Positions 38,943 through 45,820 of a stretch of 64,000 nt of DNA are shown piece after piece. The DNA lies in the NCBI GenBank assembly GCA_913060875.1, contig CAJXSL010000004.1, forward strand, positions 62,001 through 126,000, in the 5' to 3' direction. The position numbers and the translations under genes were made by a program. The stretch's first letter is position 1; the number at the start of each line of letters is the position of its first letter. The notes under the pieces were generated by a model. That model was not told where the DNA came from. It saw only the letters and a list, made by a program, of their open reading frames with translations, and did not search any database. This stretch comes from an uncultured Desulfobacteraceae bacterium (GTDB taxonomy: Bacteria > Desulfobacterota > Desulfobacteria > Desulfobacterales > UBA5852).

Positions 38943-39286
38943 GGGTAGCCGCCTCCTTTACCGTGGTCGCGCGTCAGAATCCGGATACAGGTGAAATGGT
39001 TATACGCGGGAAGGCCCCCGCCGTCAAACATCCGCCCGCCGGCAAGGACATATTCGTCGTCGGCCATAGCGTTGGAGGCACCGATCATGCCGGCGGCATG
39101 TCCCGGCGCCCCAATGCGCAGGGCCAAACCAGCCGCGCCAAGCCCCTAATTATCCCTTGACCGCCACCCGGTTTATGGTCATAGTAACGCCATCCCGAAC
39201 GAACTGATTATTTAGGGCAAAATGGCCTTAATTCATCCGTGACCCTGAACTTCAGGCAACACCGCAGGCTATTGCAGGATCAGCGC
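38943..39286. other. divergent intergenic region, no gene supported
   Basis: This region holds the promoters of the leftward flavoenzyme and the rightward Mla-type operon. A 62-codon leftward frame (38939-39127) overlaps the flavoenzyme start and has no ribosome site or recognisable similarity, so it is not called. Confidence 0.5.
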
Positions 39287-40498
39287 ATGTCTCATCCCCT
39301 GATCGAATTTCGTGACGTCCACAAAACACTGGGTTCCACCCCTGTGCTGCGCGGCACCAACCTCAAGATTCCCAAGGGGCAAATCACCACCATCATCGGC
39401 AAAAGCGGCACCGGCAAGAGCGTTTTTTTCAAACATATCATTGGATTGCTCAAACCGGATGCCGGCGACATCATTTGCGACGGCACCCCCATGTCCGCCA
39501 TGACGCGGTCCGAACTCTGGAAATGGCGCGGCAAATTCAGCTACATGTTCCAGAACATGGCCCTGTTCGACTCCATGACCGTTTACGCCAACGTGGCCCT
39601 GCCCCTGGAGCAGGGGACAACCCTTGCCCGCCGCGAGATTCGCAAACGGGTACACGAACGCCTGCGGCAACTGGATCTCGAAGGCATCGACCATAAATAC
39701 CCCTCGGAGTTGTCGGGCGGCATGCAAAAGCGGGTCGCCATGGCGCGGGCGCTGGTAACCGACCCGGAGATCATTCTGTTTGACGAGCCCACCACCGGGC
39801 TGGACCCCATCCGTAAAAATGCGGTCCACAGCATGATTTCCGAATACCAGAGCCGGTACGGTTTTACCGTCATGCTCATCAGCCACGAGATTCCGGACGT
39901 CTTCCTGATTACCCAGCAACTGGCCATGTTGGATGAGGGCAAGATTATCTTCCAGGGACCGCCGGAAGATATCCACAATGTCGACGATCCCATGATCCAC
40001 GCGTTCATCACCGGGCTCCATCATCCCCAGGACGAACTGACCGGCATGGACACGGTCACCCATGGCAAGCAGCACTATCAGGATGCCATGGACCGCCTCC
40101 AAAATGAACGCGCCGCTTTTTCCATCATTCTGCTGACCCTGGAAAGCCTGGACACCATCAATGCCCAACTGGGCCACGTCAAAGGCCAGGTGATTCTGAA
40201 AAATTTCTCCACCGAAGTCAAAAAACATATTCGTGCGGAAGATTCCTGTTCGCGTCACGGCCTGAGCAAACTGATGATCGTACGGCAAAATGCCGGTGCC
40301 CAAAACGCCCGCGACTTCTGTTTCCGGCTTGCCAAAGATCTCAAAGCCGATCATATTGTGAACCACACACTTCCGGAGCTGCCCAGCCTGAACGTCAGCG
40401 CCGGATTTGCCCAGGCCGACCAGGGCGCTTCGTTTGAAAACGTGCTGGCCCAGGCCGAATCACGGGAATCCACCTTTTTGGAGTTTAAGATTCACTGA
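39287..40498 (+). CDS. mlaF: MlaF-type ABC ATPase fused to a degenerate GGDEF-like domain
   Basis: Residues 1-245 form an Mla-type ATPase: Walker A GKSGTGKSVFFKHIIGLLKP, Q-loop FSYMFQNMALFDSMTVYANV, signature ELSGGMQKRVAMARAL, Walker B EIILFDEPTTGLDP and H-loop VMLISHEIPDVF. Together with MlaE and MlaD it would move phospholipid across the periplasm. An extra C-terminal domain of about 150 residues has the strand-helix pattern of GGDEF domains (AFSIILLTLESLDTINAQLG, VKGQVILKNFSTEVKKHI), but RHGLSKLMIV replaces the GGDEF loop, so no cyclase activity is expected. The ATG at 39287 gives a normal ATPase N-terminus. It is the first gene of the operon. Confidence 0.88.
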   Translation: MSHPLIEFRDVHKTLGSTPVLRGTNLKIPKGQITTIIGKSGTGKSVFFKHIIGLLKPDAGDIICDGTPMSAMTRSELWKWRGKFSYMFQNMALFDSMTVYANVALPLEQGTTLARREIRKRVHERLRQLDLEGIDHKYPSELSGGMQKRVAMARALVTDPEIILFDEPTTGLDPIRKNAVHSMISEYQSRYGFTVMLISHEIPDVFLITQQLAMLDEGKIIFQGPPEDIHNVDDPMIHAFITGLHHPQDELTGMDTVTHGKQHYQDAMDRLQNERAAFSIILLTLESLDTINAQLGHVKGQVILKNFSTEVKKHIRAEDSCSRHGLSKLMIVRQNAGAQNARDFCFRLAKDLKADHIVNHTLPELPSLNVSAGFAQADQGASFENVLAQAESRESTFLEFKIH

Positions 40499-40565
40499 TG
40501 GCAATGAATGCGCGGCCATGGCCGCCGGCGCTTTTCGGGCGCAACATGCTGACAGGCGAGGGATC

Positions 40566-40997
40566 ATGTCCCGGAAAATGACCGTCATTCTGGAAAACAA
40601 ACTTGAAGAGCTGAGCGTGCTGACCCAGATGCTGCAGATCTTTTTGCGCCCCTACCGGATGCCCTCGCGCACCCTTTACGCCCTGGAACTCAGCCTGGAA
40701 GAAATTCTCGTCAACATCGTTTCCTATGCCTACGAAGACAATGCGCGCCACGAGATCCAGTTCAATGTCAAGGTGGACGACGATATGATCGCCATGAAAT
40801 TCATCGACGACGGCCGCCCGTTCAACCCCCTGGCCGCCGAAAAAATGACAGCCCATCAGCCCGCCATGGATCACGCGCTGGGAGGGCTGGGGATCAATTT
40901 CGTTCGCCAGATGCGCGATATGATGGAATACCAGCGTCAGGACGACAAAAACATCCTGCGCATATGGTTTCAACGCAAAGCCGGCAAGGAGGGCTAA
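40566..40997 (+). CDS. RsbW/SpoIIAB-like ATP-binding (anti-sigma/switch kinase) protein
   Basis: This 143-residue protein has a HATPase_c_2 fold: the N-box helix LYALELSLEEILVNIVSYAY, the G1-type FIDDGRPFNPLA and the GGLGINFVRQMRDMMEYQR segment. Such proteins phosphorylate STAS-domain partners or hold sigma factors. The ATG at 40566 is preceded by GAGGG. The gene lies between mlaF and mlaE, which is not the classical Mla order. A STAS protein gene lies just past the operon at 43216-43551, so a partner-switch pair acting on the transporter is plausible. Confidence 0.88.
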   Translation: MSRKMTVILENKLEELSVLTQMLQIFLRPYRMPSRTLYALELSLEEILVNIVSYAYEDNARHEIQFNVKVDDDMIAMKFIDDGRPFNPLAAEKMTAHQPAMDHALGGLGINFVRQMRDMMEYQRQDDKNILRIWFQRKAGKEG

Positions 40998-41010
40998 AGG
41001 GAACATCCGG

Positions 41011-41859
41011 ATGGCGCAAATGACAACCAACGGTGCGAAACTCCCCAAACCGGCGCATCAGCCGCCGGAGGCGCTCATGAACCGCCTGTTCGACCCCTTT
41101 GGCCGACGGGTCATGCGCGTGGTGGACAACCTGGGAGCCGCTGCAATTTTCCTGGCCAAAGCGCTGGTCCTGATATTCGGCCGCAAACAGTTTCCCGCCA
41201 TTGTCCAACAGGTCAATATCATCGGGGCCCGAACCGTCAACATCGTCGCTCTGGTGGGGCTCTTTACCGGCATGGTCATGGGGCTGCAACTGTATTACAC
41301 CCTGGTCCAATACGGATCGGTCGGTGTATTGGGCTCGGCTGTCGCCCTCTCCATCATCCGGGAGTTGGGTCCGGTGCTGACCGCCATCATGATCACGGCC
41401 CGGGCGGGATCCGCCATGACGGCTGAAATCGGCATCCAGCGAAATTCGGAACAGATCGACGCGCTTTTCACCATGCGGATCGATCCCGTGGGGTATTTGA
41501 TCAGCCCCAAGATTGCCGCCGCCATCGTGAGCTTCCCCATCCTGACCGCCTTATTTGATTTGATCGGCATCCTGGGCGGGTATATCAGCGGGGTCGTTCT
41601 GATGGGGGTCAATGAAGGCGCCTATTTCTATCGCGTCCAGAGCAGTGTCGACATCGCCGATATCAACGGCGGCTTTATCAAATCCCTGGTTTTCGCCCTC
41701 ATCGTCTCGACCATCTGCTGCTACCAGGGCTATTTCACCCACATGCGTGAAGACAGCTACGGGGCCCGCAGCGTCAGCCGTTCGACGACATCGGCGGTGG
41801 TGCTCTGCTGCGTATCCATTCTGGTGGCGGATTACATCGTTACCTCCTTTTTGCTTTAG
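41011..41859 (+). CDS. mlaE: MlaE-type permease
   Basis: This 282-residue inner-membrane protein has an amphipathic N-terminal region followed by about five membrane helices. MlaE/YrbE hallmarks are IGARTVNIVALVGLFTGMVM, the elbow ELGPVLTAIMITARAGSAMT, AEIGIQRNSEQIDALFTM and SPKIAAAIVSFPILTALFD. It forms the dimeric membrane core that works with MlaF and the MlaD ring. It begins 13 bp after the RsbW-like gene and ends 9 bp before mlaD, a tight operon. The first 20 residues are Pro/Ala-rich, and the start could instead be the Met at residue 23. Confidence 0.93.
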   Translation: MAQMTTNGAKLPKPAHQPPEALMNRLFDPFGRRVMRVVDNLGAAAIFLAKALVLIFGRKQFPAIVQQVNIIGARTVNIVALVGLFTGMVMGLQLYYTLVQYGSVGVLGSAVALSIIRELGPVLTAIMITARAGSAMTAEIGIQRNSEQIDALFTMRIDPVGYLISPKIAAAIVSFPILTALFDLIGILGGYISGVVLMGVNEGAYFYRVQSSVDIADINGGFIKSLVFALIVSTICCYQGYFTHMREDSYGARSVSRSTTSAVVLCCVSILVADYIVTSFLL

Positions 41860-41868
41860 GGGTATGCC

Positions 41869-42324
41869 ATGAAAAAATATTCCAATGAAACCATCGTCGG
41901 CATTTTTGTCGTTCTGGGTCTGGCGGCCATCAGCTTCATGGCCGTACGGCTTGGCAACGTCTCCTTTCTGGGAGACAACACCTACGCGCTGTATGCCCCC
42001 TTCAACAGCGTGAGCGGACTGCGGGTCGGCAATTCCATCGAAATGCTGGGAATGGAGGTCGGTCGCGTGGCCGCCTTTAAAATGGATCAGGACAAACAGC
42101 AGGCCATCGTGGAACTGCGCATCCAAAAAGGGATCGAGGTCTTTGACGATGCGATCGCCTCTATTAAAACCGCCGGCCTGATCGGCGATAAATACGTCGA
42201 AATCGACCCCGGCGGGGGAGGGGACCTCCTGGGCAGCGGCGACACCATTATCGAAACCGAATCCCCGGTGGACATCATGGAACTGGTCAGCAAATACGCA
42301 TTTGGTGATGTGGGTGAAAACTAA
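41869..42324 (+). CDS. mlaD: MlaD-type MCE-domain protein
   Basis: This 151-residue protein has one N-terminal membrane helix (VGIFVVLGLAAISFMAVRL) and a single MCE domain: FNSVSGLRVGNSIEMLGMEV, GRVAAFKMDQDKQQAIVEL, AIASIKTAGLIGDKYVEIDPGG. It would form the periplasmic hexameric ring that passes lipids. The length is close to Escherichia coli MlaD but with a short C-terminal helix. It lies between mlaE and mlaA. No mlaC (periplasmic lipid shuttle) follows, which is unusual for a complete Mla pathway. Confidence 0.93.
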   Translation: MKKYSNETIVGIFVVLGLAAISFMAVRLGNVSFLGDNTYALYAPFNSVSGLRVGNSIEMLGMEVGRVAAFKMDQDKQQAIVELRIQKGIEVFDDAIASIKTAGLIGDKYVEIDPGGGGDLLGSGDTIIETESPVDIMELVSKYAFGDVGEN

Positions 42325-42352
42325 ACCGAAGCATAGGAGTGGAGAGCATAAG

Positions 42353-43204
42353 ATGAAGATACTGCGGGGACTGGTTTTGGCGGTTGTTTGGCTGGGGATG
42401 GGGACACCGGTATGGAGCGCTGCGACGGTGCCGCTGCCGATCGCCACGGTCCACCCTCCGGAAACCGAATCGATCTACCTTGCCCAGCAGAAAGGCGTCA
42501 TCCGGGACACTGCGGAGAGAGACCAAAAAAAAGCGGAAGAAAATCTCTGGGATGATGAGGAGGACCTATGGGAAGATGAAGAGGAAGAACTGACCATTGC
42601 CGACCCGCTCTACTACTTCAATAAAAGCATCTGGCACTTCAACGACGTTGTCTTCCTCTACATTGGTGAACCGGCGGCCAAGGGCTACAATAAGATCTTC
42701 CCTGAAACCATTCGAACCGGGGTGACCAATTTCTTCTCCAACTGGTACACACCCGTGCGGCTTGTCAGCTGCCTGTTGCAGGCCAAATGGGAAGAGGCCG
42801 GCACCGAAACCGGACGATTCTTCATCAATACGAGTTTCGGCATCCTGGGGTTTGCCGATCTGGCCAAAGAAGAGGAATGGACGGGCTGGGATGTGGCCGA
42901 TGAGGATGTGGGACAGGTCTTCGGGGCCTGGGGCATCGGCCATGGCTTCTATCTGGTGCTGCCGCTGGTGGGCCCCTCCTCGGCGCGGGATGGTGTCGGG
43001 CGCATCGGCAACGGGTTTCTGGACCCCCTGACCTATCTCGACATCAAATTCTGGGAATATGCAGCCATATGGAGCTATCGTGAATTCGCCAACTATGCTC
43101 CCTATGCCGTCGAATACCGAAAATTCCGGGACATGAGCCTGGACCCCTATACCGCCATGCGCGATGCCTATATCCAGCTCCGCGCCCGGCAGGTCCGGGA
43201 ATAG
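42353..43204 (+). CDS. mlaA: MlaA/VacJ-type outer-membrane lipid-pathway protein
   Basis: This 283-residue protein has a signal peptide (GLVLAVVWLGMGTPVWSA) and a MlaA domain: ADPLYYFNKSIWHFNDVVF, PAAKGYNKIFPETIRTGVTN, RFFINTSFGILGFADLAKEE, FGAWGIGHGFYLVLPLVGP, SSARDGVGRIGNGFLDPLTY. MlaA sits in the outer membrane as a doughnut that removes misplaced phospholipids. Two oddities are visible: no lipobox cysteine, although most homologues are lipoproteins, and a strongly acidic linker (DDEEDLWEDEEEE) before the domain. AGGAGTGGAG precedes the ATG at 42353. It is the last gene of the operon. Confidence 0.92.
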   Translation: MKILRGLVLAVVWLGMGTPVWSAATVPLPIATVHPPETESIYLAQQKGVIRDTAERDQKKAEENLWDDEEDLWEDEEEELTIADPLYYFNKSIWHFNDVVFLYIGEPAAKGYNKIFPETIRTGVTNFFSNWYTPVRLVSCLLQAKWEEAGTETGRFFINTSFGILGFADLAKEEEWTGWDVADEDVGQVFGAWGIGHGFYLVLPLVGPSSARDGVGRIGNGFLDPLTYLDIKFWEYAAIWSYREFANYAPYAVEYRKFRDMSLDPYTAMRDAYIQLRARQVRE

Positions 43205-43215
43205 CGTAACAGAAC

Positions 43216-43551
43216 TTATGCCAGGAGTTTTTGCTGCCCTTCCGCTATAGTGTCCGTGATGGGAAAAATGGATGCAAAGCCGCTCATGTCCAGGATATGG
43301 CGGACATCGGAGGTGGGGGCACACATGACAAAACGACCGCCGGTGTGCTGAATCTTCTTCGTGGTGGCCAGCAGGACACGTAAGCCGGCGCTGCTGATAT
43401 ATTCCAAAGATGCCAGATTATAAAGATAGCGGCCCTTCTCTTCAATAGCCGCCATCATGTCCGTTTCAGCCTCATCGGAAGTGACCGCATCCAGACGCCC
43501 TTCCATGATGAAAGTGGTAATCCCATCCTTTGGGTTGATTTCAATTTTCAT
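43216..43551 (-). CDS. STAS-domain (anti-anti-sigma-factor-like) protein
   Basis: This 111-residue single STAS domain has IMEGRLDAVTSDEAE, YLYNLASLEYISSAGLRVLL with the usual phosphorylatable serine in ISSAG, and GGRFVMCAPTSDVRHILDMS. In sigma-factor switches, such proteins bind an RsbW-like kinase; in the Mla system, the STAS protein MlaB binds MlaF. It is encoded tail to tail with mlaA, 11 bp away, on the opposite strand, so it is probably expressed separately. Partners could be the RsbW-like protein at 40566-40997, MlaF, or both. Confidence 0.9.
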   Translation of the reverse strand: MKIEINPKDGITTFIMEGRLDAVTSDEAETDMMAAIEEKGRYLYNLASLEYISSAGLRVLLATTKKIQHTGGRFVMCAPTSDVRHILDMSGFASIFPITDTIAEGQQKLLA

Positions 43552-43656
43552 CGATTTTTCTCAGCTCCCTGGACTGACCCCGCCAATCATCACCATGCGA
43601 CCGCCCAATTTTCTTCTCATCCATATAATGATGATCCCATAAAAAGTAATTTATCT

Positions 43657-43751
43657 GTCATTCCGGATCCCGGATCGGCGTCCGGGACAGGCGTTGATCC
43701 GGAATCTCTAACGTCTTGGTACCAATAGATTCCGGCTTTCGCCGGAATGAC
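43657..43751. repeat. REP-like palindrome cluster
   Basis: GTCATTCCGGATCCCGGATC begins at 43657, and CCGGCTTTCGCCGGAATGAC ends at 43751. Between them lie further inverted GATCCGGAATCTC pieces. This is the same family as the units at 19696, 28710, 36811, 47697 and 56592. The rest of 43552-43960 shows no gene. Confidence 0.8.
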
Positions 43752-43960
43752 GTCTAAACGGGGAATTCGACTTTTTTCGGTTCCATCAAATAAAGAACCC
43801 AATGCCCCCCCAGGCCGGTTTGCCGATGTTGCCCACGCGCCCGCTAACAATTGTTTTGTCATTTCTTAATGCCATCCTAATGCCACCATGATGTTCTGAT
43901 CATCAGATTTTAAATCGGTGCCATGTTCACCAAGCAACCCACAGGATCTTCTGTACCGAA

Positions 43961-45820
43961 ATGACGCTGAATAATCAATCGTTCGATCCGCCTGAGATCT
44001 GCAACCGATTAGCGGTGCCTGCCCATCAGGCGCCGTCCGACATCGAACCGCCCTGGCCGGGATTCCTGAACCGGCTACCGGGATATGGCGATTTGCACGC
44101 CAATTACACCCGGGCGGCGGCCACATTGGCAGGTGGTGCGTGCCCCTATACCCATTATCTTCATCAATTGAAAGTTCGGGTGGATGTTTCCGAGATCGAC
44201 CTCCGCCGCCTGCCGCGCCAGGGGCCCCTCCTCGTTATCGCCAACCATCCCTTCGGCGGTTTGGATGGCCTTATGCTGGGCAGTATCCTGGCCCGGGTAC
44301 GACCGGACGTCAAACTGCTGGGGAACCATTTTTTATCACGGATCGACGGCATGGACGATGCCATCATCCCCGTCGACGTTCTCGGAGGACGGGCCGCCAC
44401 AGGCGCCAACAGCGGCGCCCTGCGCAAAGCCGTCGCCTGGCTGCGTTCCGGTGGTTGTCTCGGTGTTTTCCCGGCCGGAGAAGTCAGCCGGTTTCGCTGG
44501 AAGGAGCTGAACGTCACCGACCGGGAATGGCAGCGGCATGTCGGCGCGATTGTCCGCCTCAGTCAAGCGACTGTGGTCCCGGTGTACTTTCCGGGGCGCA
44601 ACAGTGCCTTGTTCACCATGGCCAGCCTTTTACACCCTTTTCTGGGCACCGCCCTTTTGCCGTTGGAACTGGCCCGTCGAAAAGGGCAATCTTTTCGGGC
44701 CGTCATTGGTGAAGCCCGCACGGCATCACGGCTGCCGTCCATGGGCGACGACCAGGCCCTAATGAACCATCTCCAGCGGCAGACCTATTTCCTGTCCCAT
44801 CGCATGGCCACCCGTGGCCTGGCCCGAATTCCCATCCCCAAAAAACCGCGGCAATCGCCGGCCCTGAAGAAAATCATCGCGCCCATTCCCCAAAAACGCC
44901 TCGAAAACGAAATCCAGTCGCTGCCGCCGGACCAGCAACTGGCTCGTCAGGGCCGCTTTGGGGTCTATTATGCGGAAGCCATCCAGGCCCCCCACCTGGT
45001 GAATGAAATCGGACGCTTGCGGGAAACCACCTTTCGCGAAGTCGGTGAAGGTACGGGCCAGCCGGTGGATCTCGATCGGTTCGACCCGCACTACCTGCAT
45101 TTATTCCTCTGGAACCATGAACACGGCGAGTTGGCTGGCGCCTATCGCCTCGGCCTTACCGATCGGCTTCTCCAAACCTGCGGTCTGGCCGGGCTGTATA
45201 CGACAACGCTGTTTCGCTTTAAACCGGAACTGCTGCAGGAGCTGACCCCCGCCGTCGAGTTGGGGCGCGCCTTTGTGCGATCCGCCTATCAGCGTCATCA
45301 TGCCTGCCTTTTTCTCCTGTGGCGCGGCATCGGCCAGTTCATTGTACGGCATCCCCAGTACCACAAGCTGTTCGGCCCGGTGAGCATCAGTCAGGACTAC
45401 CAGAAACTTTCCCGGGACCTTATGATTCGCTACCTGCGGGCCAACAAAATGGATCAGCGCCTGGCCCGCCTGGTGACGCCGCGCCAACCCGTGCGGATTC
45501 GCTCCCGCAGGATTCTCAAAGATCCGACGATCGACAACCGGTGCCACAATCCGGAAGATATCGCCATTCTCGTCTCCGAGCTGGAAGAAGACGGCAAGGG
45601 CCTGCCGGTGCTTTTGCGGCAGTACCTCAAACTGGATGCCACCCTGCTCAGCTTCAACCTCGACAAAGCCTTTTCCAATGTGGTCGATGGCCTTGTCTTC
45701 CTGGATTTGACCCGAACCGCATCCCCGATGGTCAAACGGGTCATGGGCAAGGAAGGTTACCGGCAATTCTGCGCCTTCCACCGATTAGGCCAGGGCGATC
45801 GATTCCGCCAAGCAAGCTGA
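43961..45820 (+). CDS. fused PlsC-like acyltransferase and OlsB/hemolysin-type N-acyltransferase
   Basis: This 619-residue protein has two parts. Residues about 60-300 resemble PlsC-family acyltransferases, with the catalytic HxxxxD box (VIANHPFGGLDG) and VFPAGEVSRF. Residues about 330-560 resemble the GNAT-like OlsB/hemolysin acyltransferase, with YYAEAIQAPHLVNEIGRLRE, TFREVGEGTG, HEHGELAGAYRLGL, ELGRAFVRSAYQRHHA and FGPVSISQDYQ. The fused architecture is known from OlsF-type ornithine-lipid synthases, which first N-acylate ornithine and then O-acylate the product. An aminolipid role is therefore likely, though the amino acid is not certain. The nearby Mla genes fit a membrane-lipid theme. 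Confidence 0.85.
   Translation: MTLNNQSFDPPEICNRLAVPAHQAPSDIEPPWPGFLNRLPGYGDLHANYTRAAATLAGGACPYTHYLHQLKVRVDVSEIDLRRLPRQGPLLVIANHPFGGLDGLMLGSILARVRPDVKLLGNHFLSRIDGMDDAIIPVDVLGGRAATGANSGALRKAVAWLRSGGCLGVFPAGEVSRFRWKELNVTDREWQRHVGAIVRLSQATVVPVYFPGRNSALFTMASLLHPFLGTALLPLELARRKGQSFRAVIGEARTASRLPSMGDDQALMNHLQRQTYFLSHRMATRGLARIPIPKKPRQSPALKKIIAPIPQKRLENEIQSLPPDQQLARQGRFGVYYAEAIQAPHLVNEIGRLRETTFREVGEGTGQPVDLDRFDPHYLHLFLWNHEHGELAGAYRLGLTDRLLQTCGLAGLYTTTLFRFKPELLQELTPAVELGRAFVRSAYQRHHACLFLLWRGIGQFIVRHPQYHKLFGPVSISQDYQKLSRDLMIRYLRANKMDQRLARLVTPRQPVRIRSRRILKDPTIDNRCHNPEDIAILVSELEEDGKGLPVLLRQYLKLDATLLSFNLDKAFSNVVDGLVFLDLTRTASPMVKRVMGKEGYRQFCAFHRLGQGDRFRQAS

Follow-up and report, generated by a model that had tools for sequence, protein, structure and literature searches.

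We have identified, in a 64,000-nt stretch of DNA (the window) from the 5.88 Mb, 30-contig genome of an uncultured Desulfobacteraceae bacterium, an operon for an Mla-type phospholipid ABC (ATP-binding cassette) transporter that also encodes an RsbW-type kinase and ends tail to tail with a gene for a STAS protein. With modest confidence, we read the locus as a transporter equipped with its own partner switch, which would act on the MlaF ATPase. Each of the proteins belongs to a known family; what is new, as far as the literature we searched goes, is a partner switch inside an Mla operon whose MlaF is fused to a GGDEF domain. The closest relatives of the genome are metagenome genomes whose named records read 'Desulfobacterales' or 'Deltaproteobacteria'.

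Organization and conservation of the locus

The locus spans 39287-43551, with mlaF, rsbW, mlaE, mlaD and mlaA in that order on the plus strand and the STAS gene convergent with mlaA on the minus strand. Its features are as follows.

39287..40498, plus strand: mlaF, ABC ATPase with a fused C-terminal degenerate GGDEF domain (PF00005 120.1 bits, PF00990 49.1 bits)
40037..40495, plus strand: GGDEF-like domain of MlaF, with GLSKL in the place of the catalytic motif and RxxD kept (TIGR00254 55.9 bits, cut-off 37.4)
40566..40997, plus strand: rsbW, predicted serine kinase of the SpoIIAB/RsbW type (PF13581 69.6 bits, cut-off 27.4)
41011..41859, plus strand: mlaE, permease of the subfamily that we label type II (PF02405 242.5 bits; tree)
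41869..42324, plus strand: mlaD, MCE protein (TIGR04430 136.3 bits, cut-off 135)
42353..43204, plus strand: mlaA, outer-membrane component with a signal-peptide-like N-terminus (by eye) and no lipobox (PF04333 198.4 bits)
43216..43551, minus strand: STAS protein of the SpoIIAA/RsbV type, Ser54 at the SpoIIAA phosphoserine position (PF01740 61.2 bits; TIGR00377 70.9 bits, cut-off 53.45)

The gaps are 67 bp between mlaF and rsbW, 13 bp between rsbW and mlaE, 9 bp between mlaE and mlaD, and 28 bp between mlaD and mlaA; the stop codons of mlaA and the STAS gene are 11 bp apart. The arrangement agrees with an earlier note on this DNA, which had placed an RsbW-type gene between mlaF and mlaE and a STAS gene with an ISSAG serine tail to tail with mlaA. 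An MlaE permease, which also exceeds the cut-off of TIGR00056 (221.5 bits against 212.2), and an MlaD MCE protein together mark the operon as a member of the Mla group.

The gene order is conserved within the genus. The co-occurrence check that the earlier note had proposed recovered mlaF-rsbW-mlaE-mlaD-mlaA with a convergent STAS gene in three more genomes (L054, L055 and L056), so that, the window's included, four of the five genus genomes searched carry the six-gene order; the fifth (G002, about 80% complete) has no kinase of the window type. Kinases of the relatives are 72-76% identical to the window's and STAS proteins 50-71%, and both the kinase motifs and STAS Ser54 are intact in all four genomes with the locus. 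The ratio of nonsynonymous to synonymous substitution rates (dN/dS) lies between 0.07 and 0.26 in 17 of 18 gene pairs, the remaining pair, of mlaA, being saturated; dS is often close to 1 or higher. The genes are under purifying selection. A kinase profile run on 389 genomes of the order gave 289-300 bits in the four genus genomes and at most 113 bits elsewhere, and a single one of the 26 next-best kinase loci had an MlaD gene within its 1.5 kb flanks. The conserved six-gene order, the dN/dS ratios and the low background among mla operons (see below) lead us to reject a chance neighbourhood.

The kinase has an HATPase_c_2 domain in which E46, N50, D81, G83 and GGLG, which we take to be the N-box and ATP-lid motifs, are invariant across the genus; family and motifs together predict that it acts as a serine kinase. 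Its scores against the RsbW and SpoIIAB equivalogs (26.7 and 25.9 bits) are below the cut-offs of 145 and 135. A profile built from seven kinase relatives matched SpoIIAB structures at E 5e-8, and one built from the four genus kinases alone matched no PDB chain at E 0.01. In a tree with few columns and many weak forks, the window-type kinases form a clade with 100/100 support, separated from other RsbW proteins by a stem of 0.86.

Alignment of the STAS protein to SpoIIAA structures sets Ser54, within ISSAG, against the first serine of the SpoIIAA DSSG motif, which is residue 58 if the chain numbering counts the initiator methionine; SpoIIAA is phosphorylated at Ser58. Phosphorylation of the window's STAS protein at Ser54 is a prediction from the aligned residue. 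The best NCBIfam model for the protein is TIGR00377, and its score against STAS_2 is barely over the cut-off (29.9 bits against 29.2). In addition to this protein, the genome encodes three stand-alone STAS proteins, one on each of contigs 9, 2 and 1, and all four fit TIGR00377, an anti-sigma-antagonist model. All four stay under the cut-off of NF033618, the MlaB model; the protein on contig 9 matches weakly, at 19.7 bits against a cut-off of 90. Besides the window's, no stand-alone STAS gene of the genome adjoins the mla operons with a GGDEF-fused MlaF. The earlier note had counted a complete mlaBC elsewhere, together with an unconserved kinase linkage, as evidence against itself: an mlaC does lie elsewhere, no stand-alone STAS protein qualifies as MlaB by the model, and the linkage of kinase and mla genes is kept in the genus.

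The transporter and the GGDEF-like domain of MlaF

The degenerate GGDEF domain at the C-terminus of MlaF was overlooked in the earlier note. The window's MlaF has 403 aa, against 269 aa in the PDB chain of E. coli-type MlaF; its open reading frame (ORF) can also be read from a GTG at 39239, and we chose the start at 39287 as in the relatives. The best model for the whole protein is NF008809 (MlaF; 198 bits, cut-off 441), and its PDB matches include MlaF chains. The last ~155 residues score as GGDEF, well over the PF00990 cut-off of 23.8 bits. The predicted structure of the isolated domain has a mean confidence (predicted local distance difference test, pLDDT) of 83.5, and the 50 PDB matches listed for it are GGDEF proteins; the placement of the domain cannot be read from the full-length model because its pLDDT is only 66.7.

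We reject an active diguanylate cyclase: GG(D/E)EF stands at the aligned place in none of 70 MlaF rows, which count the window's gene and a few others twice. With regard to c-di-GMP binding, the arginine of the RxxD site is kept in 21 of these rows and the aspartate in 29, and the four genus members keep both. The fusion also occurs outside the genus. ABC and GGDEF-like parts share one reading frame in all 20 relatives fetched, which were chosen as best hits. Among the phylum MlaF matches listed, those of 24 of 247 genomes reach at least position 393 of 403, and the remainder end by position 284, most of them near 245; this marks the fusion as well established in part of the phylum. One other phylum member (G519:C15:480-5972, the L258 region) has two GGDEF-tailed MlaF genes ~3 kb apart on one contig, perhaps from adjacent type I and type II operons.

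Types I and II are our own labels, assigned by score for the neighbour counts given below. In quick trees of 44 operons, the window's MlaE falls with the type II mla subfamily and its MlaF with the classical type I, each split with an SH-aLRT (approximate likelihood ratio test) value of 99; for MlaD, too, the trees favour type II, less firmly. Judged from these trees, the operon (39287-42324) looks like a chimera.

Absence of mlaC, which the earlier note had recorded, holds for the window locus and not for the genome, whose only PF05494 match (144 bits) lies on another contig in a second mla operon. That MlaC-bearing operon is classical, its MlaF is also GGDEF-tailed (24.5 bits, cut-off 23.8), and no STAS gene adjoins it. 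The transporter of the window would presumably borrow an MlaC encoded elsewhere. A third MlaE of the genome has a weak N-terminal STAS match (20.3 bits, cut-off 29.2). The lack of a lipobox in MlaA was correctly observed and is an ordinary trait: of 22 N-termini of MlaA from other Desulfobacterales (starts taken mechanically), only 3 show the lipobox pattern, and we reject its absence as a special sign.

Partner-switch genes beyond the genus

A scan of a bacteria-wide collection of 84,980 species found 268 kinase relatives, of which the best 80 were kept. Genes for mla components adjoin four of these 80 RsbW loci, three in the genus and one in another family of the order, the latter being the locus with the MlaD gene among the 26 next-best above. 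This last locus (L112, the same place as L208) has in line a STAS gene, a receiver-PP2C gene, mlaE, a GGDEF-tailed mlaF, mlaD and mlaC, with an RsbW gene convergent at its end. All of its genes were confirmed by Pfam above cut-off, and of the MlaE matches outside the genus its own scored highest (454 bits). In the kinase tree, with its few columns and many weak forks, the L112 kinase groups among other Desulfobacterota RsbW proteins, apart from the window clade. Because it sits on a different branch, its recruitment next to the same kind of transporter looks independent, and the locus, in one genome, appears to be a separate acquisition of a full partner switch. Past it, at L112:11198-14853, lies a second MCE operon that encodes an MlaE with a weak STAS match, an ATPase, a long MlaD-like protein and an ABC_trans_aux lipoprotein.

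Searching from the transporter side, in the stretches fetched for mla operons, we found an RsbW gene near none of the 21 of type I and, for the 30 of type II, only near the one at L112. These loci, like the kinase loci of the order, are best-scoring hits rather than random samples, and the stretches differ in length and many end at contig ends. In one type II stretch (L169) the ORF picker had displaced the MlaE frame, and MlaF served for the count instead. A receiver-PP2C gene near another type II operon (L159) was judged to be at chance level, PP2C genes being common.

Other ABC transporters keep company with such kinases. Only two PF13581 matches of the genome are strong (99 and 69 bits, against at most 33 bits for the 14 others), and both sit among ABC-transporter genes. 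The stronger, on contig 9 (L053:5749-11220), shares one strand with a STAS gene, an ABC exporter and a MASE10-HAMP-SpoIIE phosphatase. More broadly, an ABC protein of more than 450 aa is encoded upstream within 1.2 kb on the same strand in 24 of 78 RsbW loci, these being the loci among the 80 in which the ORF picker found the kinase. A STAS gene lies directly downstream of rsbW in all 24, and the mla loci are not among them. A cassette of an MsbA-like ABC exporter (~840 aa, with a long insertion in the ATPase domain), RsbW and STAS recurs in Desulfobacterales and Deltaproteobacteria records; the copies on contig 9 and at L113:1842-7507 also have a SpoIIE phosphatase, and L113 has a cNMP-binding protein between exporter and kinase. 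The exporter of one cassette relative has MsbA as its best NCBIfam model, below cut-off. The cassette resembles the window locus in having a partner-switch pair among ABC-transporter genes, and both occur in the window's genome; it differs in its transporter class, in a STAS gene that is in line, and in a kinase on another branch.

The genome has 20 PP2C (PF07228) matches above 120 bits. Its matches to sigma-70 region 3 (PF04539) number only two, one in a 749-aa frame (RpoD-sized) and the other FliA-like beside an FlhG-like gene, the names resting on size, sequence and neighbour; this search revealed no SigB/SigF-like sigma factor in the genome. With only RpoD-sized and FliA-like candidates, a sigma factor is not our first guess for the output of the kinase.

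Promoter-like sites are near the shuffle mean and terminator-like sites below it. Beyond the STAS gene, an inverted-repeat-like stretch (43640-43760) resembles dispersed repeats, by eye only, and separates it from a divergent gene (43961-45820) for a 619-aa protein that joins an acyltransferase (PF19576) to a GNAT-type domain (PF13444). Comparison with the three genus relatives gave no match to this protein in the stretches covered; for one of them the stretch stops shortly past the STAS gene.

A candidate phosphorylation switch on MlaF

The E. coli Mla system (MlaFEDB-C-A) offers the closest model for how a STAS protein could act on this transporter. The parts of PMC7367683 that concern MlaB report that this STAS protein is a binding partner of MlaF, required for its association with the complex; that MlaB Thr52, at the phosphorylation site of other STAS proteins, lies near the centre of the MlaF interface; and that Thr52Glu weakens MlaF binding. 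They pose phosphoregulation of MlaB as an open possibility, without evidence. The window locus shares with E. coli an MlaF ATPase, MlaE, MlaD, MlaA and a co-encoded STAS protein. It differs in that MlaF bears a GGDEF-like domain where E. coli MlaF has a short C-terminal tail, the STAS protein is of the SpoIIAA type rather than MlaB, an RsbW kinase is encoded inside the operon, and mlaC is not.

By analogy, the STAS protein would stand where MlaB stands in E. coli. In its unphosphorylated form it may hold the ATPase in an assembled or active state by binding MlaF, either on the helical subdomain, where MlaB binds, or on the GGDEF-like domain, which we propose as an obvious second docking site. 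The RsbW-type kinase would phosphorylate Ser54, break the contact with MlaF and stop transport, and one of the ~20 PP2C (SpoIIE-type) phosphatases of the genome would reverse the phosphorylation. The sequences show the genes, their motifs, the conserved linkage and purifying selection; we infer each binding event, that STAS is phosphorylated, which way the switch works and which enzyme reverses it.

Two groups of known systems bear on this scheme. The locus uses the kinase and STAS families of SpoIIAB-SpoIIAA and RsbW-RsbV, with the phosphoserine position conserved; unlike those pairs, its members are under the equivalog cut-offs, have no sigma factor recognised alongside and are linked to a lipid transporter. 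Partner switches also act on GGDEF proteins, SiaC on SiaD, HsbA on HsbD and BgrV on BgrR, according to the portions of PMC8457831 that describe them. As in SiaABCD, HsbA-HsbD and BgrV-BgrR, a STAS or STAS-like protein is here combined with a GGDEF protein; unlike in those systems, the GGDEF domain has no catalytic motif and forms one protein with an ABC ATPase, and no linked phosphatase is seen in the genus. Of the SiaABCD set, the window locus has the kinase, the STAS protein and a GGDEF-like domain, and the PP2C protein appears at the L112 locus. Among NCBIfam models, SiaD matches the C-terminal domain of MlaF best, at a score far under the cut-off (62.3 bits against 290), and SiaC, a DUF1987 protein, binds the SiaD stalk outside the region that the MlaF tail matches, which makes the analogy with SiaD a loose one.

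Several observations weigh against a switch on MlaF. Linkage is rare (the four of 80 RsbW loci noted above) and outside the genus comes from a single genome of another family. Between the halves of the genus the STAS proteins are 50% identical where the kinases are 72%. The window's STAS protein has no match to NF033618 even at E 1, and none of the 21 type I operons has a STAS neighbour in the stretches fetched. No PF07228 match of the genome falls within the span of the window, nor did the stretches read for the three genus relatives yield a phosphatase. Outside the genus, the operons examined nearly always carry the fused MlaF without a neighbouring kinase or STAS gene, so the fusion did not evolve for the switch. 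Nor is the MlaB analogy simple, since Thr52Ala is still bound to MlaF and is non-functional (PMC7367683, in its parts on MlaB).

The phosphorylation-controlled partner switch that the earlier note had suggested nevertheless stands as the best explanation, given the linkage in the genus, the L112 linkage with its phosphatase and the sibling kinase beside an ABC transporter. As first put, it left out the GGDEF-like domain on MlaF, and the linkage is rare rather than typical of Mla.

Other arrangements of the same parts deserve consideration. It is possible, if rather unlikely, that RsbW itself clamps and inhibits MlaF or MlaE until dephosphorylated STAS draws it away, which would make the kinase rather than STAS the direct regulator. 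Sigma factors are clamped in this way by RsbW and SpoIIAB. The embedding of the kinase gene between two subunit genes would favour stoichiometric co-assembly, and the kinase clade has a long stem; the partner of the ATPase in E. coli Mla is, however, the STAS protein (PMC7367683, same parts). Slightly less probable still is an ordinary partner switch whose output lies elsewhere, with FliA, a diguanylate cyclase or another regulator, and which the mla operon merely co-expresses. A STAS gene is present in the stretch of 62 of the 80 RsbW loci and 76 of the 80 have no mla gene there, and the genome offers both a FliA-like gene and many PP2C proteins; yet the kinase has been kept between mlaF and mlaE in four of five genus genomes, an apparently independent linkage exists in another family, and PF04539 detected no SigB/SigF-like factor.

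The idea that STAS is a constitutive substitute for MlaB, with the kinase a structural or silent subunit and no switching at all, strikes us as improbable. It would suit a genome in which no stand-alone STAS protein reaches the MlaB cut-off and a STAS protein that just passes STAS_2, but the kinase motifs and Ser54 are intact in four genomes, and from the type I operons a GGDEF-fused MlaF seems not to need a STAS neighbour.

We therefore retain a partner switch acting on MlaF as our preferred reading. It is tempting to speculate further, and only tentatively, that in part of the Desulfobacterota MlaF exchanged its need for MlaB for a dead GGDEF domain, and that this lineage added a serine-phosphorylation switch that docks there or at the MlaB site. 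It would be the first Mla system under phosphoregulation, and the genome would then run two classes of ABC transporter by partner switches. We found no paper on RsbW or partner switching with Mla, nor on MlaF with GGDEF, in the open-access PubMed Central literature, and a term search of the text of a STAS review (PMC8256260) gave no mention of Mla.

How phospholipid traffic between bacterial membranes is turned on and off is poorly understood. With the kinase and its likely substrate encoded together with the transporter, the idea of MlaB phosphorylation becomes directly testable. If our reading is correct, partner switching controls a membrane transporter, beyond transcription or cyclic-di-GMP enzymes, and a dead GGDEF domain is a possible regulatory handle on an ABC ATPase. 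In these sulfate-reducer-like bacteria, phosphorylation may act as a switch for lipid traffic to the outer membrane.

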